This document shows, piece by piece, positions 1,810-16,735 of a DNA stretch of 64,000 nt (positions are counted from its first letter, which is position 1; each line of letters starts with the position of its first letter). Made by a program: the position numbers and the translations under genes. Source of the DNA: Sulfurimonas denitrificans DSM 1251 (GTDB lineage: Bacteria; Campylobacterota; Campylobacteria; Campylobacterales; Sulfurimonadaceae); assembly GCF_000012965.1 (NCBI RefSeq), contig NC_007575.1:310001-374000 (forward strand). The letters are read 5' to 3'. Under the pieces are notes generated by a model. The model saw only the letters and a list, made by a program, of their open reading frames with translations. It did not search any database and was not told where the DNA came from.

Positions 1810-3072
1810 GTGAATAAAAATCTAGTAAATAAGATATTTATTACTATCGGGTTTTTATTTATTTATCGCCTACTGGCATACGTGCCAGTTCCAGGCGTTG
1901 ACGCTGCTGTTATAGCTTCATTCTTCGATTCACATCAATCAGACGCATTAGGTTTATTCAATATGTTTAGTGGAAATGCTGTTGAGAGAATGTCAATTAT
2001 AGCTCTTGGTATTATGCCTTATATTACTGCTTCAATTATCATGGAACTTCTTGCCGCAACTTTCCCTACTCTTGGGCAGATGAAAAAAGAGCGTGATGGA
2101 ATGGTAAAATATATGCAAATTATTCGTTATGCGACTATTGTTATAACAATAATTCAAGCAATAGGTATAAGTGTTGGACTACAAAGTTTAACAGGACCTA
2201 ATGGTAACAGCGCAATCTTAGCAGATCACAACACATTTATCATGCTCTCTGCTGTATCGATGCTAGCTGGAACTATGTTACTTATGTGGATTGGCGAGCA
2301 GATAACTCAAAGCGGTATCGGAAATGGTATATCTTTAATTATCTTCGCAGGAATCGTCTCAGCAATTCCAAGTGCGATTGGTCAAACGTTTACAATGGTA
2401 AATACTGGAGCTATGAGTTTCATAACAGTACTTGCTATATTAGCTCTTATTTTTGGAACTGTTGCAGTTATTATTTATGTTGAGCTAGGTGAACGTCGCA
2501 TACCAGTGACGTACGCTAAAAAAGTTATGTTACAAAATCAAAACAAAAGAGTTATGAACTATATTCCTATCAAGGTAAACCTCGCTGGTGTTATTCCAGT
2601 TATTTTTGCTAGTGCAATATTAATGTTTCCAATGACTGTAATGTCAAGTAGCACTAATCCAACGATTATGGCTATAGCTGATTATCTTAACCCAAATAGT
2701 TATTTCTTTAACTTTTTGACATTTGTTTTTGTTGTTTTCTTTGCATTTTTTTATGCATCGATAACATTTAACTCAAAAGATATTTCTGAAAATTTAAAAA
2801 AACAGGGTGGCTTTATCCCAGGTATTCGTACTGGAAATGCAACTGCTGAATTTTTAAATACAACGGCGAGTAATTTGACATTTACAGGTGCTCTATATCT
2901 TGGTTTAGTAGCAACTCTACCATTTATGATTATCAAAGGGATGGGAGTTCCATTCTTCTTTGGAGGGACTGCAGTTTTAATTGTTGTTCAAGTTGCACTT
3001 GATACTATGAGAAAAATTGAGGCTCAAATTTACATGAGTAAGTATGAGACACTAAGTGCAGTTGGTCTGTAA
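1810..3072 (+). CDS. secY: Preprotein translocase subunit SecY
   Basis: SecY is the channel-forming inner-membrane subunit of the Sec translocon and works with SecE (34721-34900 here). The 420-residue product is highly hydrophobic with about ten membrane segments. It starts RLLAYVPVPGVD near residue 21 and carries the cytoplasmic GERRIPVTYAKK loop that contacts SecA and ribosomes. The start is GTG, 2 bases after the rplO stop. Tight spacing to rplO and map implies one transcript, as in most bacteria. Confidence 0.97.
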   Translation: MNKNLVNKIFITIGFLFIYRLLAYVPVPGVDAAVIASFFDSHQSDALGLFNMFSGNAVERMSIIALGIMPYITASIIMELLAATFPTLGQMKKERDGMVKYMQIIRYATIVITIIQAIGISVGLQSLTGPNGNSAILADHNTFIMLSAVSMLAGTMLLMWIGEQITQSGIGNGISLIIFAGIVSAIPSAIGQTFTMVNTGAMSFITVLAILALIFGTVAVIIYVELGERRIPVTYAKKVMLQNQNKRVMNYIPIKVNLAGVIPVIFASAILMFPMTVMSSSTNPTIMAIADYLNPNSYFFNFLTFVFVVFFAFFYASITFNSKDISENLKKQGGFIPGIRTGNATAEFLNTTASNLTFTGALYLGLVATLPFMIIKGMGVPFFFGGTAVLIVVQVALDTMRKIEAQIYMSKYETLSAVGL

Positions 3073-3075
3073 ATA

Positions 3076-3834
3076 ATGGCCATAGCGCTTAGACAACCCG
3101 CAGATATTGAAAAACTACGTGCTGCCAATAAGATTGTTGGTGGTGCATTAGAGCTACTAAGACAAAATACAAAAATCGGTATATCTTTAAAAGAGCTTGA
3201 CGCTATGGCAGAGGATTATATCCGCTCTCATGAAGCTAGACCCTCTTTTAAGGGACTTTATGGCTTTCCAAATGCAGTATGCACATCACTTAATCATGTA
3301 ATCATTCACGGTATCCCAACAGAATATAAGCTTCAAGAGGGTGATATTATAGGTTATGATATTGGGACTGAACTTAATGGGTGGTTTGGTGACGCTGCTA
3401 TTACAGTAGCAGTTGGAGAAGTAAGTGACAAAGATAAAGAATTAATAGCATGTGCCAAAGATTCACTCTATGAAGCTATTGATGCTATAAAAGTTGGAAT
3501 GAGATTTAAAGAACTTTCTGTTATTTTAGAAAATGCTATTCGTTCAAGAGGCTTTGTTCCTCTTCATAGTTTTTGTGGGCATGGAATAGGTAAAAAGCCT
3601 CATGAAGAACCAGAAATACCAAACTATTTAGAGGGAAAAGACCCAAAAGGTGGTCCAAAAATAAAAAACGGAATGGTTTTTTGTTTAGAACCGATGATTT
3701 GTCAAAAAGATTCAAAGCCGCTTATTTTAGAGAATAAGTGGGATGTTGTTAGTGCCGATGGTTTACGCGGCTCACACTACGAGCATACTGTTGCAGTTGT
3801 CAATGGTAAAGCTGAAATTTTATCTCTGGCTTGA
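3076..3834 (+). CDS. map: Methionine aminopeptidase, type I
   Basis: Removes the N-terminal methionine from nascent proteins in the cytoplasm. The 252-residue product carries the metal ligands of the family: the two aspartates in [17 protein letters not shown], the histidine in HSFCGHGIG, the glutamate in CLEPMI and the C-terminal YEHTVAV. It starts 3 bases after secY and precedes infA, a common spc-operon arrangement. No N-terminal zinc-finger extension is present, as expected for bacterial type I enzymes. Confidence 0.97.
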
Positions 3835-3850
3835 GAAAAAAAGGATTAAA

Positions 3851-4069
3851 ATGGCTAAATCAGATGTTATCGAAGTTGATGGCAAGATTATAGAGGCTTT
3901 GCCAAATGCAACATTCCGTGTTGAGTTAGAAAACGGACATATTATTTTATGTCATATTGCAGGAAAAATGCGTATGCACTATATAAAGATATTGCCAGGC
4001 GATAAAGTAAAATTAGAGCTAACACCATACTCTTTAGATAAAGGTCGTATCACTTACAGATACAAATAA
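3851..4069 (+). CDS. infA: Translation initiation factor IF-1
   Basis: IF-1 binds the ribosomal A site during initiation. The 72-residue product is a single OB-fold with the canonical start [13 protein letters not shown] and the conserved [23 protein letters not shown] region, ending GRITYRYK. The reading frame opens further upstream inside map, but the ATG at 3851, preceded by AAAAAAGGA, gives the family length. It is the last gene before a terminator. rpmJ, its usual next neighbour, is about 12.9 kb away. Confidence 0.97.
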
Positions 4070-4072
4070 AAG

Positions 4073-4094
4073 AGAGGCATTTTTGCCTCTTTTT
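4073..4094 (+). terminator. Rho-independent terminator after infA
   Basis: The 7-bp stem AGAGGCA/TGCCTCT (4073-4079 with 4084-4090), a TTTT loop and a following T run form an intrinsic terminator 3 bases after infA. A-rich sequence on the other side may let it also end the convergent minus-strand gene. It marks the end of the spc transcript and the left edge of the accessory block. Confidence 0.8.
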
Positions 4095-4102
4095 AAAACT
4101 AG

Positions 4103-4840
4103 CTACTCTATATCGCTTTTATAAATCTTCATATTTTTTAAATCAAACATCTTGTATAGTACATACCAATTTGCCAAAGCGGTTAAATAAGTATCGCTAT
4201 ATATTGTATTTTGTCTCTCTTTTTCTAAAGTCAACTCATTAGAAAAAAGCTTTTTCAACTCAAACTCACTTCTTAGTGTTAGATCATCAAAAAAAATCTC
4301 TTTGAGGCTTTTTGCTACGGTTGTCTCTGTAGTATCTTTTAAATACTCTTCATCAACTAAAATTTGAGGATTATATGTTGCTTTAAAAGTCCCATTTTTT
4401 AAAGGTTTTGACTCTATTGAGGTGACTTTATTGTTATATTTAAAAACCCACGCCATATAACCCCCATCCAAAATAGAGATATTTTCAAACCCATGTTGCA
4501 AAAAAGTAGATGCTAAATAGGTAGCGTTTAGATAATCAATACTATTTGTCCTTGAGTATATAACTACATGCGAGTTTTCATTTATACCAAGATTGCACAT
4601 CTCATCTTCTATTTTTTGGTTAAAGTTTATAGAGACTCCTGTGTATTTATTATTGATAAATTTAGAAATATTGGTATGAATTGCGCCAGAGATATGGCTT
4701 TTTTTATAATCAGAGTATTTACTTACATCCAAGAGAATTAAATTATTCTCTTGTAAAATCTCATTGAGTTGAGCTGGCTTTATAAAAGCATCATAAGCAT
4801 TTACATGTAGAGCAAAAAGTAGTATTAGTACAAATTTCAT
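4103..4840 (-). CDS. Exported rhodanese-like protein lacking the catalytic cysteine
   Basis: Two tandem rhodanese-like domains behind a signal peptide (MKFVLILLFALHVNA, residues 1-15). Domain 1 (about 20-140) has LLDVSKYSDYKKSHISGA and ILDGGYMAW, typical of sulfurtransferases. Domain 2 (about 155-245) ends in IYSDTYLTALANWYVLYK, which aligns with the usual YCGSG active-site loop but has Ser215 where the catalytic Cys belongs. A sulfur-transfer role is therefore doubtful; a binding or regulatory role is possible. The start at 4840 fits the signal peptide, although the frame opens at 4900 inside the preceding gene. It lies 7 bases after the chorismate mutase gene. Confidence 0.7.
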   Translation of the reverse strand: MKFVLILLFALHVNAYDAFIKPAQLNEILQENNLILLDVSKYSDYKKSHISGAIHTNISKFINNKYTGVSINFNQKIEDEMCNLGINENSHVVIYSRTNSIDYLNATYLASTFLQHGFENISILDGGYMAWVFKYNNKVTSIESKPLKNGTFKATYNPQILVDEEYLKDTTETTVAKSLKEIFFDDLTLRSEFELKKLFSNELTLEKERQNTIYSDTYLTALANWYVLYKMFDLKNMKIYKSDIE

Positions 4841-7023: not shown

Positions 7024-8277
7024 TTAAAGCAGTGAGAGTAGGACAGCTAACAAAACTATGGGGGTTACTAAAAGACCAAATTTTGTATATGAGTAGTAAT
7101 TAATTTTTATCCCTTTTTTCTCTAGCGTATGAAGCCATAAAAGTGTAGCAAGTGAGCCAAATGGCGTCATCTTTGGACCTAGATTACAACCTATGATATT
7201 TGCATATATCATCGCTTCGTTTGCAATATCTTTGAGTGCTATATCCATAATCATGATAGTAGGCATATTGTTCATCACAGCAGATAAAATTGCAGCTAAA
7301 AAGCCAGTTCCAACAACTGCTATAAGCTGGCTTTGAGTATTTAAGTAGAGCAAAATCTCACTCAAGTAATTAGTCAAGCCTGCATTTTTAAGCCCATAAA
7401 CAACTATATAAAGACCAAGTGAAAACCATACAACTTGCCAAGGTGCATCTTTAATTATCTCTTTTGGTTTAACTGCTTTGGCAAATGTAGCAATGAGTAG
7501 AAATATAAGTGCACCGCCTAGAGCAAACAAAGAGATAGGCAGATGATAAGTATCTCCTATAAAATAGCTACAAAGCAGAAGTGCTATAAAGAGCCAAGAG
7601 AAGTTAAATAGTCCTTTGTGCTTTATGGCATCTTTTGGGTTTTTAAGTAAAGTTATATCTACATGTAAAGGAATGTCTTTGCGCAAAACTATCCAAAGTA
7701 TGAGCATACTTATCAGTGTGCTTATGAAAAATGGGAAAATCATATTTGCAAAAAAAGTTCCAAAGCCTATGTTGAAGTAGTTGGCGGTAACTATATTTGT
7801 TAAATTTGAAAATACAAAAGGCAAAGATGCACTATCACTTATAAAACCACCAGCAAGTAAAAATGCAAGAATAGTTTTTGTGTTTAATCTAAGAATTTTC
7901 ATTTTTGCAAGTAAGATAGGAGTTAAGATAAGTGCTGCTCCATCATTTGCAAAAAGTGCTGAAACAAGAGCACCTAAAATTATAGAGTAAAAGAACATTG
8001 CTCTTCCACTTCCATTGGATAGTTTTGCCATCACAAGAGCGCAGTACTCAAAAAAGCCTATCTCATCTAAAATCATAGAGAAGATTATTATGCCTATAAA
8101 AGCGAGCGTTGCGTCCCAGATAATATCAAAAACACTCAAAACATCATTAAAGTTTACAACACCAAAAATAAGAGCAACTATTGCGCCAGATATAGCAATA
8201 GTTCCTATTTGTAATCCACGTGGCTGCCATATAATTAAAATAAGAGTTACAAGAAATATTAAAAAAGGAAGCAACAT
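7024..8277 (-). CDS. arsB: ArsB-family arsenite efflux permease
   Basis: A 417-residue polytopic membrane protein of the ArsB/NhaD/SLC13-like superfamily that extrudes As(III) (and Sb(III)) using the proton motive force. About ten or more hydrophobic segments are visible. ArsB-like blocks include ANDGAALILTPILLAKM, GGFISDSASLPFVFSNLTN and MNNMPTIMIMDIAL. Its ATG overlaps the arsC stop by one base (TAATG), implying translational coupling in an arsR-arsC-arsB operon. That context supports arsenite over other anions. Confidence 0.85.
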   Translation of the reverse strand: MLLPFLIFLVTLILIIWQPRGLQIGTIAISGAIVALIFGVVNFNDVLSVFDIIWDATLAFIGIIIFSMILDEIGFFEYCALVMAKLSNGSGRAMFFYSIILGALVSALFANDGAALILTPILLAKMKILRLNTKTILAFLLAGGFISDSASLPFVFSNLTNIVTANYFNIGFGTFFANMIFPFFISTLISMLILWIVLRKDIPLHVDITLLKNPKDAIKHKGLFNFSWLFIALLLCSYFIGDTYHLPISLFALGGALIFLLIATFAKAVKPKEIIKDAPWQVVWFSLGLYIVVYGLKNAGLTNYLSEILLYLNTQSQLIAVVGTGFLAAILSAVMNNMPTIMIMDIALKDIANEAMIYANIIGCNLGPKMTPFGSLATLLWLHTLEKKGIKINYYSYTKFGLLVTPIVLLAVLLSLL

Positions 8278-8675
8278 TAGAGCTCTTTTTCTATAATTGG
8301 AAGGAGTTTGCTCTTTATCTCATCAAATATTTTAAAAAATTCTGCAATCTCTTTGCCATCAGGGTCAACAAAACCTACATGTATTACTTTACTCTTTTTT
8401 TTAAATATTGGACATGACTCTTTTGCGTTATCACATACAGTTATAACTAAGTCAAAATCTATATCTTCAATCTCTTCTATAGTTTTAGAGTGGTACTCGT
8501 CTCTCCATATTTGAGCTTTTTGCAAAACTGCTTTTGCGTTTGGATTTACGACACCACTAGCACGAACTCCTGCACTATAAGCTCTAACACCTTTTACATG
8601 TGCATTTATGAGAGCTTCGGCAATGATAGAGCGACAACTATTTCCTGTACATAAGACTAATATTTTTTTATTCAA
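8277..8675 (-). CDS. arsC: Arsenate reductase, thioredoxin-coupled (low-MW phosphatase fold)
   Basis: Reduces As(V) to As(III) for export by ArsB. The 132-residue product has the CX5R phosphatase loop CTGNSCRS (Cys9, Arg15) and the redox pair Cys81/Cys88 in CDNAKESC. This matches the three-cysteine relay of the plasmid pI258/Bacillus ArsC class, which is recycled by thioredoxin rather than glutaredoxin. The VDPDGKE loop supplies the general acid. It overlaps arsR by 8 bases and arsB by 1. Confidence 0.88.
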   Translation of the reverse strand: MNKKILVLCTGNSCRSIIAEALINAHVKGVRAYSAGVRASGVVNPNAKAVLQKAQIWRDEYHSKTIEEIEDIDFDLVITVCDNAKESCPIFKKKSKVIHVGFVDPDGKEIAEFFKIFDEIKSKLLPIIEKEL

Positions 8676-8979
8676 GATTGCATCCTTTTTTTTGTAATGA
8701 TATATTTATGCCTAGAGAGTTAATCTCTTTTAAAATTGATGCTCTAAACTCATCCATAGGTTCTACAATACTGTAAAAAGCCCATCTGCCACGTCTGTCA
8801 ACCTTTAAAAATCCTGCATCTTTTAAAATTTTTAGATGTCTTGATATACGAGATTGAATCATTGAAAATGAATTTTCTATATCACAGACACATACTTCAC
8901 CACTTTGATTTATATAATGAAGAATCTCAACTCTAGTGTAATCATTTACTGCGCCAATAGTTTTTAAAAAAACATCCAT
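8668..8979 (-). CDS. arsR: ArsR-family arsenic-responsive repressor
   Basis: A 103-residue winged-helix repressor with the As(III)-binding EVCVCDIE motif (Cys30, Cys32) in the DNA-recognition region and the QSRISRHLKILKDAGFL helix-turn-helix. Family members repress their own operon and release DNA when As(III)/Sb(III) binds the cysteines. It is the first gene of arsR-arsC-arsB, and an ATCAA-N6-TTGAT palindrome lies 51 bases upstream of its start, consistent with autoregulation. Confidence 0.9.
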   Translation of the reverse strand: MDVFLKTIGAVNDYTRVEILHYINQSGEVCVCDIENSFSMIQSRISRHLKILKDAGFLKVDRRGRWAFYSIVEPMDEFRASILKEINSLGINISLQKKGCNLE

Positions 8980-9024
8980 ATATTACTCCTTGTTAGAATT
9001 TTCAAAATTATAACAGTTTATAAA

Positions 9025-9046
9025 CAATATATCAAGATATATTGAT
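9025..9046. promoter_or_regulatory. Candidate ArsR operator
   Basis: Two overlapping palindromes lie upstream of arsR. One is CAATATATC-AA-GATATATTG (9025-9044). The other is ATCAA-N6-TTGAT (9031-9046), the arrangement known for several ArsR/SmtB-family operators. It sits in the 139-base gap between arsR and the histidine kinase gene, where the arsR promoter must lie. Binding is inferred, not shown. Confidence 0.65.
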
Positions 9047-9118
9047 GTAAGATTTCTAAGTTTTAAAATAAGCACCTTATAAATGTCTCAGAGATAAATC
9101 ATAATAAGGATATTTTTC

Positions 9119-10528
9119 TTAAATATTCCTAGTTAAGAGAAGTTCATTTTTTGGAATCAGTATAGTTACAGTTGTTCCAATATCTTTTCTACTTTGTAAC
9201 TTAATTTTGTAGTTGTGAATATCTAAAATCATCTTTACAATAGAGAGTCCTAAACCAAAACCTGCATCTTTTCTTGAGCGGGCTTTATCTGCTCTGTAAA
9301 ATCTATCAAAGATAAAAGGTAAATCTTCATCGCTTATGCCATATCCGTTGTCTTTAATAATAAGCAGATACTCTTGGCTAGTCTCATCCATTGAAATCTC
9401 TATTGTTGTATCGCTCTTGCTATATACAATTGCATTTTTAAGAATGTTGTTTATAGCAATTTTTAAAAGGGTCTCATTTGCGTAAATGGTTGAGGGGATA
9501 ATTTTTTTTATGACTATATCTATGTTTTTATTTTTGGCAAATTTTTCTATCCACAAGGCTGTATCTGTGACTATTTCATCTAAATATATCTCTAAAAAGC
9601 CACTCTTTATCTCTGATGTATCTTTTTTAGCAAGGAAAAGAAGTTGATTTATTATCTCTTGGATGTTAATACTCTCTTCTAAAATATCTTTTAAAATATC
9701 TTTGTACTCCTCTGTTGATCTCTCTTGTTTGAGAGCTACTTCTATCTCTCCACGAATAACAGTTAAGGGAGTTTTTAGCTCATGTGAAGCGTCTTGGCTA
9801 AATGAGGTTATTTTATTAAAAGAGTCCTCTAAGTTGCTTAGTAGATGGTTAAAAGTACTTACAAGCTCTTCTATCTCACTAGGAATTTTTTTCGTGTCTA
9901 TGCGGTTTGAGAGACTTTTTACAGAGATTAATTTTACAGACTCTATAACCTCTTTGACGGGAGAGAGAGTTTTATTTATAAGGATGTTTGCAATGAATAG
10001 AAAAATTATTAAGATAATTGGAGTTGCTATAATCAAATTATATAGAAGTTGTTTTATATATGCAGAATCAATATCTTTTTTAGTAGCAAGTTGGATAAAA
10101 AATTTACTATCCTCTTTTTCAAAAATAAGCATAGAACTGACACGATATATACCTTTGTTGAAGTAGTAGATACTATTAAGGTGCCCAATCTCATTAAGAG
10201 GTATCTCAAATAGATAACTCATATCATCAGAGGAGATGCTCTCATGCTCTATAGTTTTGCTCTGTTTGTTATAGTGGATGATTTTTAAAAAGAGAGGGGT
10301 GATTGAAAACTCTCCTAAGAGTTCATCTGCAAACCCTTTAGCGTTAGAGTAACTGCTCTCTTTAAAGTCAGGTATAACATCCAAAGATATCATCTTAAGT
10401 TGTGCATCAGTTGTGTTTAAAAGACCTTTTTTTGCCGTGCTATAAATAAAGCCACCATAGATAAAAAGAACTATAAAATTTATGATAAAAAAGTAAAAAA
10501 GCAGTTTTAATCTTAAGCTCTTAAACAT
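9119..10528 (-). CDS. Membrane sensor histidine kinase (HAMP-HisKA-HATPase)
   Basis: A 469-residue kinase: TM1 at about 8-30, an extracytoplasmic sensor of about 130 residues, TM2 at about 163-185, HAMP, then the H-box SQDASHELKTPLTVIRGE with phospho-acceptor His249. The ATP-binding domain follows with an N-box (INNILKNAIVY), G1 (DNGYGIS), F-box (FIFDRFYRAD) and G2 (GFGLGLSIV). It overlaps the response regulator gene by 8 bases, so they form one pair. It is the last gene of a unit with a sulfatase-family transferase and dgkA, suggesting an envelope signal. The ligand is unknown. Confidence 0.9.
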   Translation of the reverse strand: MFKSLRLKLLFYFFIINFIVLFIYGGFIYSTAKKGLLNTTDAQLKMISLDVIPDFKESSYSNAKGFADELLGEFSITPLFLKIIHYNKQSKTIEHESISSDDMSYLFEIPLNEIGHLNSIYYFNKGIYRVSSMLIFEKEDSKFFIQLATKKDIDSAYIKQLLYNLIIATPIILIIFLFIANILINKTLSPVKEVIESVKLISVKSLSNRIDTKKIPSEIEELVSTFNHLLSNLEDSFNKITSFSQDASHELKTPLTVIRGEIEVALKQERSTEEYKDILKDILEESINIQEIINQLLFLAKKDTSEIKSGFLEIYLDEIVTDTALWIEKFAKNKNIDIVIKKIIPSTIYANETLLKIAINNILKNAIVYSKSDTTIEISMDETSQEYLLIIKDNGYGISDEDLPFIFDRFYRADKARSRKDAGFGLGLSIVKMILDIHNYKIKLQSRKDIGTTVTILIPKNELLLTRNI

Positions 10529-11195
10529 CTTTCTCGCTTAACATGTAGCCTAATCCTCTTACTGTATGTATAAGTTTTGGCTCATAATCTTTATCTATTT
10601 TATTGCGCAAACGGTAGATATAAACATTTACGATATTACTCATACTGACCTCTGCCATATCACTTAGATTCTCTTTTATAATTGTCTCACTTAAGAGCTT
10701 CTTGGAATTTCTTGCTAGGTATTCAAGCAGGGCATACTCTTTTGCGGTTAGGTTAATCTTTTTATCTCCACGCTTTACTTCACGACGAGCTGTATTTATA
10801 GTTAAATCAGCTATAGCTATCGTGCTTGAGAGAGTTGAGGTAGTTCTTAGTTTGGAACGGATACGAGCTAAAAGTTCCTCAAATGAAAAAGGTTTTGTTA
10901 AGTAGTCATTTGCGCCACAATCAAGACCCTCAACTTTATCTTTAATCGCATCTCTAGCTGTTAGCATAATGATTGGAGTTGCAATGTTTTTGCCTCTTAT
11001 GTTTTTACAGACATCTATCCCACCAAGTCCATGAATCATCAAATCAAGCAAAACAATATCATAAGAGTTAGTCTCTACAAGATAGATAGCTTCATATCCA
11101 TTAGATGTGACATCAACGCTGTATGACTCCTCTTGCAGACCTTTTTTTATGAAAGATGCAATTTTTTCATCATCTTCAACAACTAATATTCGCAT
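10521..11195 (-). CDS. OmpR/PhoB-family response regulator
   Basis: A 224-residue regulator with an N-terminal receiver (acidic pair Asp8/Asp9, phospho-acceptor Asp51 in VLLDLM, Thr79, Lys101 in LTKPFSF) and a C-terminal winged-helix DNA-binding domain ending HTVRGLGYML. It overlaps the histidine kinase gene and starts 3 bases after dgkA. It probably controls this operon and perhaps the divergent transferase gene; a perfect palindrome at 13572-13589 is a candidate binding site. Confidence 0.92.
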   Translation of the reverse strand: MRILVVEDDEKIASFIKKGLQEESYSVDVTSNGYEAIYLVETNSYDIVLLDLMIHGLGGIDVCKNIRGKNIATPIIMLTARDAIKDKVEGLDCGANDYLTKPFSFEELLARIRSKLRTTSTLSSTIAIADLTINTARREVKRGDKKINLTAKEYALLEYLARNSKKLLSETIIKENLSDMAEVSMSNIVNVYIYRLRNKIDKDYEPKLIHTVRGLGYMLSEKDV

Positions 11196-11198
11196 AAG

Positions 11199-11558
11199 TT
11201 ATAGCGTCTCCCAAATTATAAAAATCCAAGTTACTACAAAAATAGCTATAGATAAAAAAACAACACTGCTTCCAATATCTTTTGCTCGTCCTGCAAGTGG
11301 GTGATGTTCAAGTGTAACCAAATCAACAACTCTCTCAATAGCGCTGTTTATAGCCTCTGCTATTAGCATGCTAAAGAGCGTTATAAACATAAGAAGTTTG
11401 TTTGTAAGAGAGACATCTATAAAGATAATAACGGGTAGTAAAGTTATAGCTACAAAGAGTTCAATTTTAAATGAGGTCTCAGTTGCAACTAAATCTCTTA
11501 GCCCTTTTATCGCATAGGATGTGTTTTTAAAAAAATTATATTTAGGCTGATTTCTCAA
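11199..11558 (-). CDS. dgkA: Diacylglycerol kinase (prokaryotic DgkA)
   Basis: A small inner-membrane kinase (119 residues, three membrane helices) that phosphorylates diacylglycerol to phosphatidic acid. The signature EAINSAIERVVDLV and the downstream HPLAGRAKDIGSSVVF are clear. DgkA recycles the diacylglycerol left when phosphoglycerol or phosphoethanolamine head groups are moved from phospholipids to envelope acceptors. That fits its 4-base overlap with the upstream sulfatase-family transferase gene. Confidence 0.92.
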   Translation of the reverse strand: MRNQPKYNFFKNTSYAIKGLRDLVATETSFKIELFVAITLLPVIIFIDVSLTNKLLMFITLFSMLIAEAINSAIERVVDLVTLEHHPLAGRAKDIGSSVVFLSIAIFVVTWIFIIWETL

Positions 11559-13495
11559 TTGTTTTTATCCTTAGGTTTATATAGTTTCTTCTCATACATG
11601 TAACTAAGCGCCACAACAAAAGCCAGAGCATCTTTTTCTAGCTCCTCATCACTTTGAGTAGGAGTTAGATGGTTATTTGTATCCATATAATTTGCTGGAT
11701 CTTCATATATAAATGTAGATGCTTTTTGATCCGTACCAATTATGGCAACTTTGTCATCTACTCTTAGCGCATAAGATGTATGAAACTGCATAAGTGAGAT
11801 ATTTTGCTTCTCGTCGCTAAAAATTGAGTGTCCCATAATAGGATATGTAAAATCCAAACCTATCAAATCAAGAGCAGTAGCAAGAACATCTGGTTGAGTT
11901 GAAATTTTATCATAAATTTGAGGCTTGACATCTGCGCCAAGAATCAAAGCAGGTATGTGAAACATATCAACAGGAATTAAGTCATTGCCATAAACTCTAA
12001 CGTTATGATCTGCAACAATAACAAAAATGGTATCTTTATAATATGGCTCTTTCTTTGCCATCTCAATTAATCTCCCAATTGCAAAGTCAGCATATTTGAT
12101 GGCATTTTTAACACTATTTGGAGCTACTCCATCTAGTAGTTCTATTTTTTCATAAGGATATTCAAAGGGGGAGTGGTTTGATTGAGAAAACATAACAGTT
12201 GCAAATTTTTGATTTTTTTCATGCATCTTCTTAAACTCTTCGTTTGCTCTCACAGCCAAATCTTCATCGCAAACGCCCCATGGAGCTGTAAATGTTGGAT
12301 TTACAAAACATGGCTGATCAATAATTTCATCAAAACCGTTACCAAGGTACCAGCTCCTCATGTTGTCAAATCTACTCTCCCCACCATACATAAAGGTCGT
12401 GTGATAATCAAATGGCTTAAGTAGTGAGGCAATTGTAAAAAAACCACTCTGAGACTTGCTTCTCTTTAAAACACCATCCCCAGGAATTGCAAGATTTCCA
12501 GCACTCATGCCAGCTAACCCGCGAATGCTTCTTGTCCCATTTGAGTACAAATCTGTAAATAAAATTCCCTCTTTGCTGAGGTTGTTAAAGTTTGGTGTTA
12601 TCCCTTTTTCTCCGCCAACTGCCTCTACAAATTGATAACCAAAACTCTCTTGTATAAAAATTACAAGATTTTTTGGTTTAGTTGTTTTAAAGTGGCTCTC
12701 TTGAACTCTCAAGAAAAGAGAGTCATCGTCAGTGGTTTTTATATTTAATCTTTTTTTAACTCTTTTTATCGCCTCTTTTGTATCCATTTTGCCATATTTA
12801 GCCATCATCTTCTCACTACCATGTGCTGAATTGCTATATACAGCATACAAAATAGAGTAGATGGAGTTTTTTGTTATCTCATTTACCATTCTGTTTGTCG
12901 TGTACATCGCATCAGAAGCATTTGCTGGTCTGTGTCCAAATGATGAACGTGCGCCAATAAAAAGTAGTAAAAATATAGGTAAAAATAGAGCAATGCGCTT
13001 TAGGTAGCTAGTTTCAAATATTTTTGAAGTGCTGTTTTTTGCATATTTTAGATAAAGATAGATAAATGCACCAATCATCCCAAAGGCTACGAGAAGCTCT
13101 AGTTTATAATCCGCAAATATCATAGCAAAAACTTCTTGCGGATATACAAGATACTCAACAAAAAGATAGTTTGGACGTACATCATACTGCGCTATAAAAG
13201 GCAGAGTCGCATTTTCTATATAGATTATAATTGAGAAAACCACTAAAAAATAGTATTTTAAAAATTTTTCAACAGACTCTTTGAGTTTTGCTGGAGTTAA
13301 TGAGAGTAAAATAAGTGGAATAAGTAAAAGTGTAGATGCGACAATTGTATCCATTCTAAGACCATAAATAAAAGTGAGCCAATAATCAACACCGCTATCT
13401 TTGAAGTTATCAAAATAGAGTACAAAGAGTACTGCTCTGCCGATGAAAAATAGAGTAATCATATAAAGATAATATTTGATGAGATATTTAAACAT
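11555..13495 (-). CDS. LTA synthase/EptA-like sulfatase-family membrane transferase
   Basis: A 646-residue protein with about five N-terminal membrane segments (to about residue 182) and a periplasmic alkaline-phosphatase-superfamily domain. Likely active-site residues are the metal ligand Glu283 (FIQESFGY), the nucleophile Thr321 (SNGTRSIRG) and the late metal pair in VADHN. Relatives move phosphoglycerol or phosphoethanolamine from phospholipids to LTA, periplasmic glucans, lipid A or proteins. In a Gram-negative, one of the latter three acceptors is likely. It heads the operon with dgkA, a response regulator and a kinase, and is paralogous to the divergent gene at 13665. The substrate cannot be read from sequence. 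Confidence 0.85.
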   Translation of the reverse strand: MFKYLIKYYLYMITLFFIGRAVLFVLYFDNFKDSGVDYWLTFIYGLRMDTIVASTLLLIPLILLSLTPAKLKESVEKFLKYYFLVVFSIIIYIENATLPFIAQYDVRPNYLFVEYLVYPQEVFAMIFADYKLELLVAFGMIGAFIYLYLKYAKNSTSKIFETSYLKRIALFLPIFLLLFIGARSSFGHRPANASDAMYTTNRMVNEITKNSIYSILYAVYSNSAHGSEKMMAKYGKMDTKEAIKRVKKRLNIKTTDDDSLFLRVQESHFKTTKPKNLVIFIQESFGYQFVEAVGGEKGITPNFNNLSKEGILFTDLYSNGTRSIRGLAGMSAGNLAIPGDGVLKRSKSQSGFFTIASLLKPFDYHTTFMYGGESRFDNMRSWYLGNGFDEIIDQPCFVNPTFTAPWGVCDEDLAVRANEEFKKMHEKNQKFATVMFSQSNHSPFEYPYEKIELLDGVAPNSVKNAIKYADFAIGRLIEMAKKEPYYKDTIFVIVADHNVRVYGNDLIPVDMFHIPALILGADVKPQIYDKISTQPDVLATALDLIGLDFTYPIMGHSIFSDEKQNISLMQFHTSYALRVDDKVAIIGTDQKASTFIYEDPANYMDTNNHLTPTQSDEELEKDALAFVVALSYMYEKKLYKPKDKNN

Positions 13496-13571
13496 GTAAA
13501 CCTTTGCTTTTTTGTTTTTAGAAAAATATCACTATTTTGTTAAAACAATATGAATATAAAATGACAAATTG

Positions 13572-13589
13572 TTCATATAGTTATATGAA
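13572..13589. promoter_or_regulatory. Perfect palindrome between divergent transferase genes
   Basis: TTCATATA-GT-TATATGAA is an 18-base perfect inverted repeat in the 169-base AT-rich gap between the two paralogous transferase genes. Partial copies (ATATGAA near 13549, ATTCAT near 13595) flank it. Its central position suits an operator serving both promoters, perhaps for the nearby response regulator. This is an inference from position and symmetry. Confidence 0.5.
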
Positions 13590-13664
13590 ATAAAATTCAT
13601 CTTTTTTTCACTTTAATTTCATCACTATAACCTAATATTTCGCAATTTATTTTAAGGATTTTTT

Positions 13665-15587
13665 ATGCAAGAGAGTATGCGAAACAGATTTCATTTTATA
13701 GGGATAGTCTTTTGGATTTTTTTAGCAATTTCTGCAATAACAAGAACAGTGCTTCTGGTTAAATCAATAGATGTAGTAAGCCTATCTATATTAGAGATAT
13801 TAAAAATTTATCTCATTGGAGCTTTTTATGATTCTGTTAGCGCTGGATATTTAGTTATTCCTTTTGTAATCTATCTATTTTTTATTCCGCAAAAACTATT
13901 TAACCATAAACTTCATCGTTATCTCACCTACGCTTTTTCTTATACACTTCTCTTTGGAGCAGTTTTTTTATCATTTAGCGAGTGGTTTTTTTGGGATGAA
14001 TTTAGTGTTAGATTTAATTTTATAGCAGTTGATTATCTTGTATATACAAAAGAGGTAATTGGAAATATAAAAGAGTCCTATCCGATGGGACTGCTTTTAA
14101 CTGTTATAGCAACGATTGCAGCACTGCTCTTCTATTTTTTATATAAAACAAAAAGAGTCGATACGCTGCTTAGAGATAGCAGTACAATTAAACAAAGAAT
14201 CAAACCAACTCTAATCTATCTTCTCATACCAATAATCTCTTTTGCTCAAGTGACGGACGGCTTATCAAAATTTTCTGCAAATCAGTACAACAATGAACTA
14301 AGTAAATCAGGGCTCTACTCACTCTTTGGTGCATTTAGAAATAATACACTTGATTACAATACATTTTATCTTAGCGAAGATGAGCAGAGTGCTCTGTCAA
14401 ATCTTAAAAAATCGTTATCATCTGATAACTCTACATTTTTAAACGATGGAGGAGTTACAAGAAACATTATAAATAAGTCTCAAGAGAAGGATTATAATGT
14501 AGTAATGATAGTAGTAGAGAGCTTAAGTGGAAGGTTTCTTGAGTCTCTTGGAGGAGATAAAGGATTGACTCCAAACCTTGATTCACTTGTAAAAGAGAGT
14601 ATGTTTTTTGATAACTTTTATGCAACAGGAACAAGAACCATAAGAGGAATGGAGTCCATTACACTCTCAGTTCCGCCGATGCCAGGGCGCTCTATTGTAA
14701 AGAAGCCAGACAATCATAATATGTACTCAAGTGGATTTATCTTTCGTAATAAAGGGTATGAGACAAAGTTTATCTATGGTGGATATGGCTACTTTGACAA
14801 CATGAATGAGTTTTTCTCAAATAATGGATTCTCTGTTGTTGATAGAGTAAATTTTAGTGATGAGGAGGATACCTTTCATACAGTTTGGGGAGTTTGTGAT
14901 GAGGATTTGTTAAACAAAACTCTAAAAGAGGCGGACATGTCATATCATGCGCATAAGCCATTTATGAGTTTTGTTATGACTACATCAAACCACAGACCTT
15001 ATGACTATCCAAATGGGCGTGTTGATATACCATCTCATACAGGAAGAGATGGTGCTGTAAAATATACAGATTATGCAATTGGCGATTTTTTGAAAAAGGC
15101 AAAAGATAAACCGTGGTTTAAAAATACAATTTTTGTAATAGTTGCTGATCATTGTGCAACAAGTGCAGGAAAGAGTGAACTTCCTCTTGATAAATACCAT
15201 ATTCCTATGATTATTTATGCTCCAGAGCTTATTCAGCCACAAGTTATTAATAAAATCTCAAGTCAAATAGACATAATGCCGACACTCTTTAATATGTTAA
15301 ATTGGTCATACAAGAGTAAATTTTACGGAAAAGATATACTAGAAGAGTCATTTGAGCCAAGAGCGTTAGTTGGAACATACCAAAAGCTTGGACTATATAA
15401 AGATGATGTTTTAAGTGTTTTGTCTGTTGGTAAAAAATTAAACAGTTATGAAGTGTTAGAGCAAGATATTTTCTCTACAAAGTATAAAGAGGTCTCTTTA
15501 GATACAAAAATTAAAGATGAGATTCTAAGTTACTATCAAAGTGCAAGTTATATACAAGAGAGAAAATTAGATAGATATGAAGATTAA
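13665..15587 (+). CDS. LTA synthase/EptA-like sulfatase-family membrane transferase (second copy)
   Basis: A 640-residue paralogue of the gene at 11555-13495, with the same layout: about five N-terminal membrane segments (to about residue 197), then a periplasmic phosphatase-fold domain. Predicted catalytic residues are Glu285 (IVVESLSGRF), Thr323 (ATGTRTIRG) and the metal pair in VADHC. Both copies share the FxxVDYLVY/VEYLVY-xx-EV segment before the third or fourth membrane span. It has a good AAGGA site before the ATG. It overlaps the PAP2 gene by 11 bases, which suggests coupled lipid head-group transfer and dephosphorylation. Confidence 0.85.
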   Translation: MQESMRNRFHFIGIVFWIFLAISAITRTVLLVKSIDVVSLSILEILKIYLIGAFYDSVSAGYLVIPFVIYLFFIPQKLFNHKLHRYLTYAFSYTLLFGAVFLSFSEWFFWDEFSVRFNFIAVDYLVYTKEVIGNIKESYPMGLLLTVIATIAALLFYFLYKTKRVDTLLRDSSTIKQRIKPTLIYLLIPIISFAQVTDGLSKFSANQYNNELSKSGLYSLFGAFRNNTLDYNTFYLSEDEQSALSNLKKSLSSDNSTFLNDGGVTRNIINKSQEKDYNVVMIVVESLSGRFLESLGGDKGLTPNLDSLVKESMFFDNFYATGTRTIRGMESITLSVPPMPGRSIVKKPDNHNMYSSGFIFRNKGYETKFIYGGYGYFDNMNEFFSNNGFSVVDRVNFSDEEDTFHTVWGVCDEDLLNKTLKEADMSYHAHKPFMSFVMTTSNHRPYDYPNGRVDIPSHTGRDGAVKYTDYAIGDFLKKAKDKPWFKNTIFVIVADHCATSAGKSELPLDKYHIPMIIYAPELIQPQVINKISSQIDIMPTLFNMLNWSYKSKFYGKDILEESFEPRALVGTYQKLGLYKDDVLSVLSVGKKLNSYEVLEQDIFSTKYKEVSLDTKIKDEILSYYQSASYIQERKLDRYED

Positions 15588-16257
15588 CAGAGAAATCGTA
15601 ATTATACTAACTACTCTAATAGCTCTATTTTTACTCTTCGAGATTACAAATATTGATATGTTTGTACAGAAGTTTTTTTATGACGATATCTCTCATAAAT
15701 GGTTGTTAAGCCATGAAAAGGGGAGCTGGTTAGACATAGTTTTTTATACAGGAATAAAAAAAAGCATTATTGCATTTGCTGTCATAATTTTGTTCTTGTA
15801 TCTTTACTCATTTAGAAAATCAGCGAAAAAACTAAGAGAGTATAGAGAAGGACTTCTAATTGTTTGGCTAAGTGTGGCTATTGTTCCAGCTTTAATTGGC
15901 TTTTTAAAAGCTACAACAAATGTGCCTTGTCCATGTGATGCTTTCGTTTTTGGTGGAGATTATCCATACATAAGAGTTCTTGATTCAATGCCACAAGAGA
16001 TTATGAAAAAATTTAAGTGCTATCCAGCAGGTCATGCCAGTGGCGGTTTTGCGCTGATGTCGCTTTTTTTCCTTTTTAAATCAAAAATAAATCAAATCTT
16101 AGCTTTAGTAGTTACGCTTATTATTGGTTGGAGCATGGGCATATATAAGATGCTAATTGGAGATCACTATTTAAGCCATACGATTATAACAATGGTTTTG
16201 TCATGGCTTTTAATACTTATAATAAAAAAAGTTGTAAATAAATATTGCAAATTGTAA
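15577..16257 (+). CDS. PAP2-family membrane phosphatase
   Basis: A 226-residue membrane protein with a PAP2 signature: CYPAGHASGG (PSGH-type motif) and GDHYLSH (the third motif with its catalytic His). The first motif is degenerate: FLKATTNVPCPCD, where KX6RP is expected, lacks the Arg. Relatives remove phosphate from phosphatidic acid, undecaprenyl pyrophosphate, phosphatidylglycerophosphate or lipid A. Its 11-base overlap with the transferase gene points to the same envelope pathway. The exact substrate is unknown. Confidence 0.8.
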   Translation: MKINREIVIILTTLIALFLLFEITNIDMFVQKFFYDDISHKWLLSHEKGSWLDIVFYTGIKKSIIAFAVIILFLYLYSFRKSAKKLREYREGLLIVWLSVAIVPALIGFLKATTNVPCPCDAFVFGGDYPYIRVLDSMPQEIMKKFKCYPAGHASGGFALMSLFFLFKSKINQILALVVTLIIGWSMGIYKMLIGDHYLSHTIITMVLSWLLILIIKKVVNKYCKL

Positions 16258-16312
16258 TATTTTTTTAAAATCTAATATTTTTTTTCTATTATTATAAAAA
16301 AATGGAAAAGTT

Positions 16313-16657
16313 ATGATTTTAGGAAAATGCCCATATTGCAAAGATGGCAACATTGAAGTAAGAGATAAAGAGGTTAGCGGCAAAAAAGTAAAACTTTATG
16401 CATGCTCAAATGCTCACTGGAGCACAGAAGATGGTGAGATGTTTGAACCGACAAAAGAGTCCACATGTAGCTTTAGAATCTGGCAAAATGCACTTGCTAA
16501 GTATGGGAAGTGGCTTACATATAAAGAGATAAGAGAACTTTTGGAAAATGAGAGTGTAGAAGTAGAGCTCTTAAGTAAGAAATATGGTAAAAAAATCTAT
16601 TATAAAAAATATATAATCACAAATGAAGAGTATGGTGTTAGTGTATTGTGGGAATAA
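16313..16657 (+). CDS. Small zinc-ribbon/topoisomerase C-terminal repeat protein
   Basis: A 114-residue protein with an N-terminal CPYC...C cluster (Cys6, Cys9 and a later Cys31) resembling a topoisomerase IA zinc ribbon. It is followed by an IWQNALAKYGKWLTYKEIRELL segment resembling the topoisomerase C-terminal repeat (Toprim_Crpt). No catalytic domain is present, so it is not a topoisomerase. It stands alone at the right edge of the accessory block. The role is unknown; nucleic-acid binding is a reasonable guess. Confidence 0.6.
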   Translation: MILGKCPYCKDGNIEVRDKEVSGKKVKLYACSNAHWSTEDGEMFEPTKESTCSFRIWQNALAKYGKWLTYKEIRELLENESVEVELLSKKYGKKIYYKKYIITNEEYGVSVLWE

Positions 16658-16735
16658 GTTGTTAAAAAAAAGAATCCAAAGAGAATAAAAGTTACAAAAC
16701 TAAACAACTTAATAAATCTTTTACATTTGTTTGTG

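Follow-up and report, generated by a model that had tools for sequence, protein, structure and literature searches.

The 64,000-nucleotide window analysed here comes from Sulfurimonas denitrificans DSM 1251 (contig NC_007575.1, positions 310,001 to 374,000); all coordinates below are positions in this window unless a contig position is given. At 9119-16257 it carries a cluster encoding two predicted head-group transferases, here called TA and TB, a diacylglycerol kinase (DgkA), a PAP2 phosphatase and a two-component system. The original prediction had described four minus-strand genes at 9119-13495 that overlap or lie 3 bases apart, and the open reading frame (ORF) coordinates and Pfam matches bear this out. 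TA and DgkA overlap by 4 nt, DgkA and the regulator gene are separated by 3 nt, and the regulator and kinase genes overlap by 8 nt. In Pfam, TA matched Sulfatase (2.7e-36), DgkA matched DAGK_prokar (1.6e-31), and the regulator and kinase displayed their usual domain pairs, listed below. That description was right for the four genes but stopped short of the full cluster. Indeed, a second, divergent unit starts at 13665, where TB is followed by an overlapping PAP2 gene, and a repeat array lies in the intergenic region common to both units. The features are as follows:

9119-10528, minus strand: sensor histidine kinase, 469 aa (HisKA, HATPase_c)
10521-11195, minus strand: OmpR-type response regulator, 224 aa (Response_reg, Trans_reg_C)
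11199-11558, minus strand: DgkA diacylglycerol kinase (DAGK_prokar), 119 aa, with a TTG start codon that overlaps the stop of TA
11555-13495, minus strand: TA, 646 aa, putative membrane-anchored periplasmic head-group transferase of the VP1736 (3lxq) family, on the LtaS/OpgB side of the alkaline phosphatase superfamily
13496-13664, no strand: divergent intergenic region common to TA and TB, 169 bp, predicted promoter/operator region
13539-13565, minus strand: degenerate array facing TA, GTCAT-N6-TTCAT-N6-TTAAC, 3 mismatches
13596-13622, plus strand: triple direct repeat TTCAT-N6-TTCAC-N6-TTCAT, predicted operator of the regulator, 42-69 bp before the TB start codon
13665-15587, plus strand: TB, 640 aa, second, divergent putative head-group transferase, about 28% identical to TA, in a separate clade
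15577-16257, plus strand: PAP2 phosphatase (PF01569); scored highest, but under the cut-off, by the NCBIfam model "PAP2 family lipid A phosphatase"

The spacing of the four minus-strand genes suggests that they are co-transcribed. Two sites resembling terminators came out of a pattern scan of 8600-16700; each is on the plus strand and lies within a gene. Searches of the whole genome covered one contig of 2,201,561 bases, and TA and TB were its only two PF00884 matches.

Conservation of the cluster was assessed in 40 stretches from members of the family, with gene orders taken from our own longest-ORF script. The full divergent cluster was found in the window and in loci L048, L056 and L057. 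DgkA is missing from the cluster in L054, and both DgkA and PAP2 are missing in L059. L047 is without TA; its genome, G325, retains the other genes of the cluster as well as the array. In L069 and L070, TA-dgkA-regulator-kinase continues on the same strand with an approximately 540-aa protein and PAP2, TB being missing there, and in L064 the order is TB, a 537-aa protein, regulator, kinase, TA. In L062, which belongs to the same genus, the regulator-kinase pair adjoins TB and PAP2 with no TA at that locus. In other relatives TA or TB is present without the regulator. Since the arrangement is conserved in relatives, TA-dgkA-regulator-kinase is not a chance neighbourhood.

The proteins of about 540 aa are EptA. 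All seven that were scanned (L051, L058, L064, L067, L069, L073 and L077) matched both PF08019 and PF00884, and all five tested scored above the NCBIfam cut-off for lipid A phosphoethanolamine transferases. EptA lies in the same run as the regulator and kinase in L064 and L069, and no regulator is found near the other five EptA loci. TA, TB, EptA, PAP2, DgkA, regulator and kinase thus recur in varying combinations. In the S. denitrificans genome, PF08019 (EptA_B_N) gave no match at E 0.001, with a positive E. coli control. Further away, a TA match at E 1e-20 was found in 31 of 149 genomes of the wider order. Eleven loci outside this genome encode a protein at least 50% identical to TA; DgkA was seen at one and a kinase at another, within flanks of about 1.5 kb that reveal near neighbours only.

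Three loci showed local variations of their own. TA is split over two ORFs in L071 (G332), where DgkA is intact. In L078, a YejM/LapC/PbgA-like protein (2560-4422; DUF3413; NF038282, 135.9 of 825 bits) follows DgkA and lies two genes before TA, and in L151 a protein 38% identical to it adjoins DgkA.

Of the new evidence, the strongest in favour of TA and TB as targets of the neighbouring regulator comes from the intergenic region. When the intergenic regions of eight genomes were aligned, TTCAT units were found at 11-bp steps, the spacing typical of OmpR-family regulators. The triple pattern TTCAT-N6-TTCAY-N6-TTCAT has exactly two sites in the whole genome. In relatives the array, with 0 or 1 mismatch, follows the genes through different orders: before TA and again before EptA (L069, L070), before the regulator and before TB (L062), and before TB (L064, L065, L066). 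With at most one mismatch allowed, all 14 genomes that encode a regulator orthologue (at least 64% identity) have it upstream of TA or TB, as do 2 of 18 genomes without a close regulator; none of 241 upstream regions of control genes has it. Fisher's test of regulator versus array gave p = 5e-7 with the kinship of the genomes ignored. This count includes S. denitrificans and covers 32 of 33 genomes, G335 having no upstream DNA; G222 and G236 (regulator matches of 55-56%) were counted as without regulator, and TA of G308 has 178 bp of upstream sequence only. The motif was derived from 8 of the 14 regulator genomes, and the other six, which have different gene orders, all carry the array. Co-occurrence of this kind suggests that TA-dgkA and TB-PAP2 very probably form one regulon of the neighbouring regulator.

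Other boxes were also sought in 13496-13664. The PmrA box and the CarR box GACA-N6-TACA gave best matches with 2 mismatches, out of 8 positions for CarR, and both were rejected. A wider regulon could not be drawn from the array either: with up to 2 mismatches the genome contains 33 sites (some overlapping) against 26 for a reversed control pattern, so that only the two exact sites stand out. An identical 27-bp near-match occurs at four places of the genome (G000 C1:457890, 581401, 729849 and 2141399), indicating a four-copy repeat, possibly the rRNA operons.

The other exact site (G000 C1:2193670-2193696, or L203 5171-5197) ends 48 bp before a gene for a serine protease labelled by eye as DegP/HtrA-like, about the same distance as for the TB array. 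It was followed across 22 loci, including its own, with upstream DNA missing for G301. The site is exact here, has 1 mismatch in G325, 2 in G293, G206, G210 and G201 (the last without a close regulator) and 3 in G218. No site with up to 3 mismatches was found in 14 others, among them the regulator-bearing G114, G244, G300, G212 and G182. The site is thus retained in the nearest relatives and gone from several genomes that possess the regulator. The protease gene is a lead, not a result, as a member of the regulon.

The identity of the two transferases was examined by sequence, tree and fold, and all three place TA in the VP1736 family. TA is 39% identical to VP1736 (PDB 3lxq) over 462 aa and 24% identical to OpgB over 357 aa; E. 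coli EptA, EptB, EptC, OpgE and LapC gave E 0.4 or worse. The original prediction also stated that TA is closer to lipoteichoic acid (LTA) synthase than to EptA; the profile, tree and fold results agree with it. In a profile search of the PDB, TA matched LtaP (2.3e-25), Bacillus subtilis LtaS2 (7.2e-20) and Staphylococcus aureus LtaS (3e-11). The NCBIfam LtaS and OpgB models scored both proteins below their cut-offs (TA, 76.6 of 572 and 50.7 of 574; TB, 95.2 of 572, 57.2 of 574 and 65.3 of 970), and the EptA model (NF028537) was listed for neither TA nor TB. The tree contained 62 chosen sequences, with LtaS, LtaP and MCR-1 as partial sequences, and was rooted by hand on the Ept/MCR group. In it, TA falls among gammaproteobacterial proteins of the VP1736 type (support 1.0), and TB has a clade to itself (0.998). 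These two unite (0.975), with OpgB attached to the pair by a long branch (0.938). All three, together with LtaS and LapC, are separated from Ept/MCR (0.974); where LtaS branches is not settled in this tree. An EptA or EptC identity of TA was rejected on the evidence of the models, the BLAST comparisons, the lack of PF08019 in the genome and the position outside the Ept group.

The AlphaFold model of TA has a mean predicted local distance difference test score of 83.9 and displays the N-terminal helices. It superimposes on 3lxq with Z 55.7 over 405 residues at 1.7 A, followed by LtaP/LtaS (Z 33.5-36.0), YejM/PbgA (29.3-29.7), sulfatases (28.6 or lower) and the phosphoglycerol transferase GacH (25.4). 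No EptA-type chain was among the 50 structure matches listed; Foldseek matched the model to MCR-1 at E 1.2e-12, so that a fold kinship with the EptA type is possible. Five residues of TA (E283, T321, H441, D496 and H497) are invariant across 22 homologues. We take them to be the catalytic acidic residue, the threonine nucleophile, the histidine and the Asp-His metal/substrate residues of the LtaS/OpgB type.

Relatives of TA number at least 551 in named genomes, of which 80 were kept. Among the matches listed, the nearest named relatives are Sulfurimonas, and homologues also occur in an uncultured Aeromonas and in Shewanella, Psychromonas and Vibrio. The structure of VP1736 has been solved; we found no function for it, and none of the open-licence papers searched names it. 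Nor was a study of the TA/VP1736 family in modification of lipopolysaccharide (LPS) among the papers listed. Homologues about 42% identical to TA were present in two contigs of planctomycete metagenome-assembled genomes (L148, L152); they nest among Campylobacterota in the tree, which suggests transfer or mis-binning.

The partners of the transferases were also characterized. In an alignment with the E. coli enzyme, DgkA retains the conserved positions, and it is the single DgkA match in the genome; both observations fit the earlier proposal that it recycles diacylglycerol, a role which it would probably play here. PAP2 scored over the cut-off for the PAP2 domain itself and below those of the NCBIfam models (NF028538, 158.9 of 275 bits; NF045633, 35.8 of 400), including that of the lipid A phosphatases of the LpxE/LpxF type. 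The best NCBIfam models were TIGR01387 (cztR/silR/copR) for the regulator, with 240.2 bits for a cut-off of 279.2, and TIGR01386 (cztS/silS/copS) for the kinase, with 272.3 bits for a cut-off of 292.55. The PmrA and PmrB models gave 174.7 of 330 and 140.2 of 314, respectively, and the regulator is 38% identical to BasR, the kinase 24% to BasS. In the kinase, two hydrophobic stretches, identified by eye, surround a sensor domain of about 130 aa with no cysteine and no conserved histidine. Residues 31-165 of the window kinase contain no ExxE, and 5 of 11 orthologues likewise have none. ELxE occurs at one aligned place early in the sensor domain in 5 of 12 kinases, where the window kinase has ELLGE, and the L066 kinase has two ExxE elsewhere in the domain. 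As the domain lacks a conserved ExxE, histidine or cysteine, metal sensing as in PmrB or ColS appears unsupported.

Altogether, these characterizations are consistent with a single cluster, 9119-16257, that remodels LPS head groups under regulation and in which a two-component system, phosphoglycerol transfer and recycling by DgkA would be combined. We give this interpretation a probability of roughly 0.55. The kinase would sense an envelope signal and phosphorylate the regulator. The latter would bind the TTCAT-N6 direct-repeat arrays in the common intergenic region and switch on both divergent units, TA-dgkA-regulator-kinase (which would thus be autoregulated) and TB-PAP2. TA and TB, predicted to be inner-membrane enzymes with a periplasmic sulfatase-fold domain, would move a phospholipid head group, most likely phosphoglycerol from phosphatidylglycerol (PG), to lipid A or a core sugar of LPS. 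The leftover diacylglycerol would be rephosphorylated by DgkA, and PAP2 would probably take phosphate off lipid A or an isoprenoid. Phosphoglycerol is the group that we favour, phosphoethanolamine being less likely, and LPS is the probable acceptor.

The neighbours of TA in the wider set of loci, where genes were again called with our longest-ORF script, bear on both the donor and the acceptor. DgkA accounts for 10 of 140 immediate neighbours and EptA for 7 of 140; among genes 5-6 positions away, both fall outside the 25 families listed, that is, at most 2 of 139 each. The 140 were drawn from 147, leaving out TB of L093 and L096, the regulator of L096, one neighbour each of L095 and L145, the TA fragment of L111 and the long protein of L148. 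The distant-gene control comprises 139 of 210 genes in locus order; it ends at L151 and includes none of L152-L172. Five DgkA neighbours out of ten come from loci without a Sulfurimonas label (L107, L128, L147, L169 and L171), which argues that TA leaves diacylglycerol behind.

Twenty neighbour proteins from 12 hand-picked TA loci were then scanned. A sugar-transferase or lipid A gene lies near TA in five of them: GT9 heptosyltransferase, lipid A acyltransferase, TA and GT90 in L115; an ABC-type (MsbA-like) protein, TA and a GT25 protein of the LPS family in L102; and, beside TA, GT90 in L122, GT2 in L117 and a sugar-transferase-like protein in L172. DgkA is near TA in L169. The idea of an altered lipid A, already present in the original prediction, gains support because true EptA shares gene runs with TA or TB in relatives. 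Osmoregulated glucans were set aside as an unlikely acceptor, since MdoG (PF04349) gave no match in the genome, with a positive E. coli control. Phosphoglycerol itself is a reported LPS substituent: it has been described in the lipid A and core of Colwellia psychrerythraea 34H, and Aeromonas caviae ATCC 15468 is reported to have it in its O-chain (PMC8914368, PMC3210612). We found no enzyme assigned to this addition in the open-licence literature.

Several points weigh against the interpretation as a whole. It goes beyond what the analysis shows, namely gene content, conservation, the array with its regulator co-occurrence, family placement and retained active-site positions, by inferring transcription, regulator binding, donor, acceptor and signal. 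The LtaS arginine which we take to hold glycerol phosphate (R356) aligns with an invariant methionine in TA, so that phosphoglycerol is not assured, and this counts against a simple carry-over of the LtaS mechanism. TB is weakly similar to EptB (BLAST, 7.9e-4; model, 7.3e-4 and 17.9 of 493 bits). Many TA genes have no adjoining DgkA, EptA or two-component system, and 6 of the 12 hand-picked loci (L098, L105, L109, L124, L156 and L158) have neither an LPS-type gene nor DgkA among the scanned neighbours. The distant-gene control also contains glycosyltransferases, LptF/LptG and lipid A acyltransferases; the LPS signal is therefore regional, reflecting LPS regions in some lineages and not a rule. 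Finally, the array is present in G262 and G150 without a close regulator, and the genomes, being related, are not independent, which makes the Fisher value too optimistic.

If TA and/or TB transferred phosphoethanolamine from phosphatidylethanolamine (PE) and replaced the missing EptA, the cluster would be a functional pmrCAB with a different enzyme. The presence of EptA in the same gene runs in relatives and its absence from this genome speak for such a replacement, as do the lack of the LtaS arginine in TA and the weak resemblance of TB to EptB; recycling by DgkA fits either donor, PG or PE. However, EptA stands alongside TA and/or TB in L058, L064, L067, L069, L073 and L077 (by Pfam) and in L070 (by sequence only), so that TA and TB are not simple substitutes for it. 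TA is also closer to LtaS than to the EptA group by tree and fold. We regard this alternative as unlikely, although it is the most serious one.

The superfamily does not have a single acceptor, glucans being modified by OpgB and a cell-wall polysaccharide by GacH. TA and TB might therefore decorate another periplasmic or surface glycan (an exopolysaccharide, a glycoprotein glycan or another oligosaccharide) instead of LPS, and the many TA loci with no LPS gene beside TA are compatible with this. The lack of MdoG, the recurrence of EptA and DgkA next to TA and the LPS-type genes in some lineages make such an acceptor rather improbable.

The regulator and kinase scored best against CopRS/CzcRS models, and TA has no close regulator in many genomes. 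Both facts would be expected if TA-dgkA and regulator-kinase were neighbours without a common function and the two-component system served metal efflux of the CopRS/CzcRS type. This is quite improbable, as the array accompanies the regulator at the starts of TA, TB and EptA across different gene orders. No ORF read around the cluster was recognised as a metal-efflux gene; the nearest run is arsenic-like, with two of its labels given by eye. Polymerisation of glycerol phosphate into an LTA-like chain by TA or TB is hardly credible, even though LtaP and LtaS are the nearest fold matches of known function: the scores fall short of the LtaS model cut-off (TA not listed at E 0.001, TB 65.3 of 970), and we know of no LTA-like polymer in Gram-negatives.

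Regulated phosphoglycerol transfer to LPS can be compared with several known systems. The closest working analogue is CarRS of Vibrio vulnificus. CarRS drives dgkA-eptA-mdoB, CarR activates its own operon, and full resistance to polymyxin B requires the eptA operon (PMC10433830); in one strain, carR-carS adjoin dgkA-eptA (PMC12064563). The likeness consists of an OmpR-type two-component system, DgkA, a homologue of phosphoglycerol transferase I (MdoB), clustering and autoactivation. In contrast, V. vulnificus has EptA and the box GACA-N6-TACA, whereas here there is no EptA, the repeat is TTCAT-N6-TTCAT, and two LtaS-side transferases and PAP2 are found on two divergent units.

The original prediction compared the four genes with pmrCAB. 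Like E. coli eptA-basR-basS, they contain transferase, regulator and kinase in that order in one run, and the layout and probable role of the comparison hold. Membership does not: EptA is missing, the CopRS/CzcRS scores exceed those of PmrAB, and ExxE is not conserved in the sensor. The enzyme family, the insertion of DgkA and the second divergent unit differ as well. Thus, the comparison was right about the probable working of the system and wrong as a family assignment. The pairing of an EptC-type transferase with dgkA, which the original prediction gave for Campylobacter, was not confirmed in the parts of the literature available, and these gave no binding box or orthology link for Campylobacter CprRS.

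In Pseudomonas, dgkA, a PAP2 gene and genes for the modification of LPS are under the control of ColR (PMC2689224, PMC4074579). The 16-bp consensus of ColR, in effect TTCAC-N6-TTCAC (PMC2689224), differs by one mismatch from 13596-13611. With up to 1 mismatch this consensus has 9 matches in the 64-kb window, so a single match is weak and the parallel is only suggestive. ColS senses Zn/Fe via an ExxE near the second membrane helix (PMC2689224, PMC4074579), a motif absent from the window kinase. In mcr-pap2 and mcr-dgkA cassettes a transferase is likewise accompanied by PAP2 and/or DgkA (PMC7559476, PMC10285318), but MCR is of the EptA type and a specific regulator is reported for mcr-8 only (PMC10285318). 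VP1736 has the same fold as TA and shares its family and clade.

The idea of a regulated transferase with DgkA is thus already known, and what differs here is that TA and TB are enzymes of an uncharacterised kind. The cluster gives a concrete context to this widespread family, and it points to an operator and a regulon that can be tested for a role in LPS modification in a sulfur-oxidising bacterium of an environmental Campylobacterota lineage. For marine Gram-negatives, it also supplies a candidate for the enzyme that attaches phosphoglycerol to LPS. Should the donor be PG, the usual link of such operons to cationic phosphoethanolamine would need widening. More speculatively, and with a good deal of doubt, TA and TB in Campylobacterota might place phosphoglycerol on LPS under the control of an envelope-stress system dedicated to them. 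They would then be an anionic counterpart of EptA or an alternative to it, and DgkA would cover the cost in lipid.

Next to the cluster, 139 bp after the kinase gene and on the same strand, 7024-8979 encodes an ArsR-type regulator (PF01022), a small phosphatase/arsenate-reductase-like protein and an ArsB-like transporter, the last two labels being assigned by eye. All three arsenic-type genes adjoin the cluster in L047, and the transporter also does so in L048.

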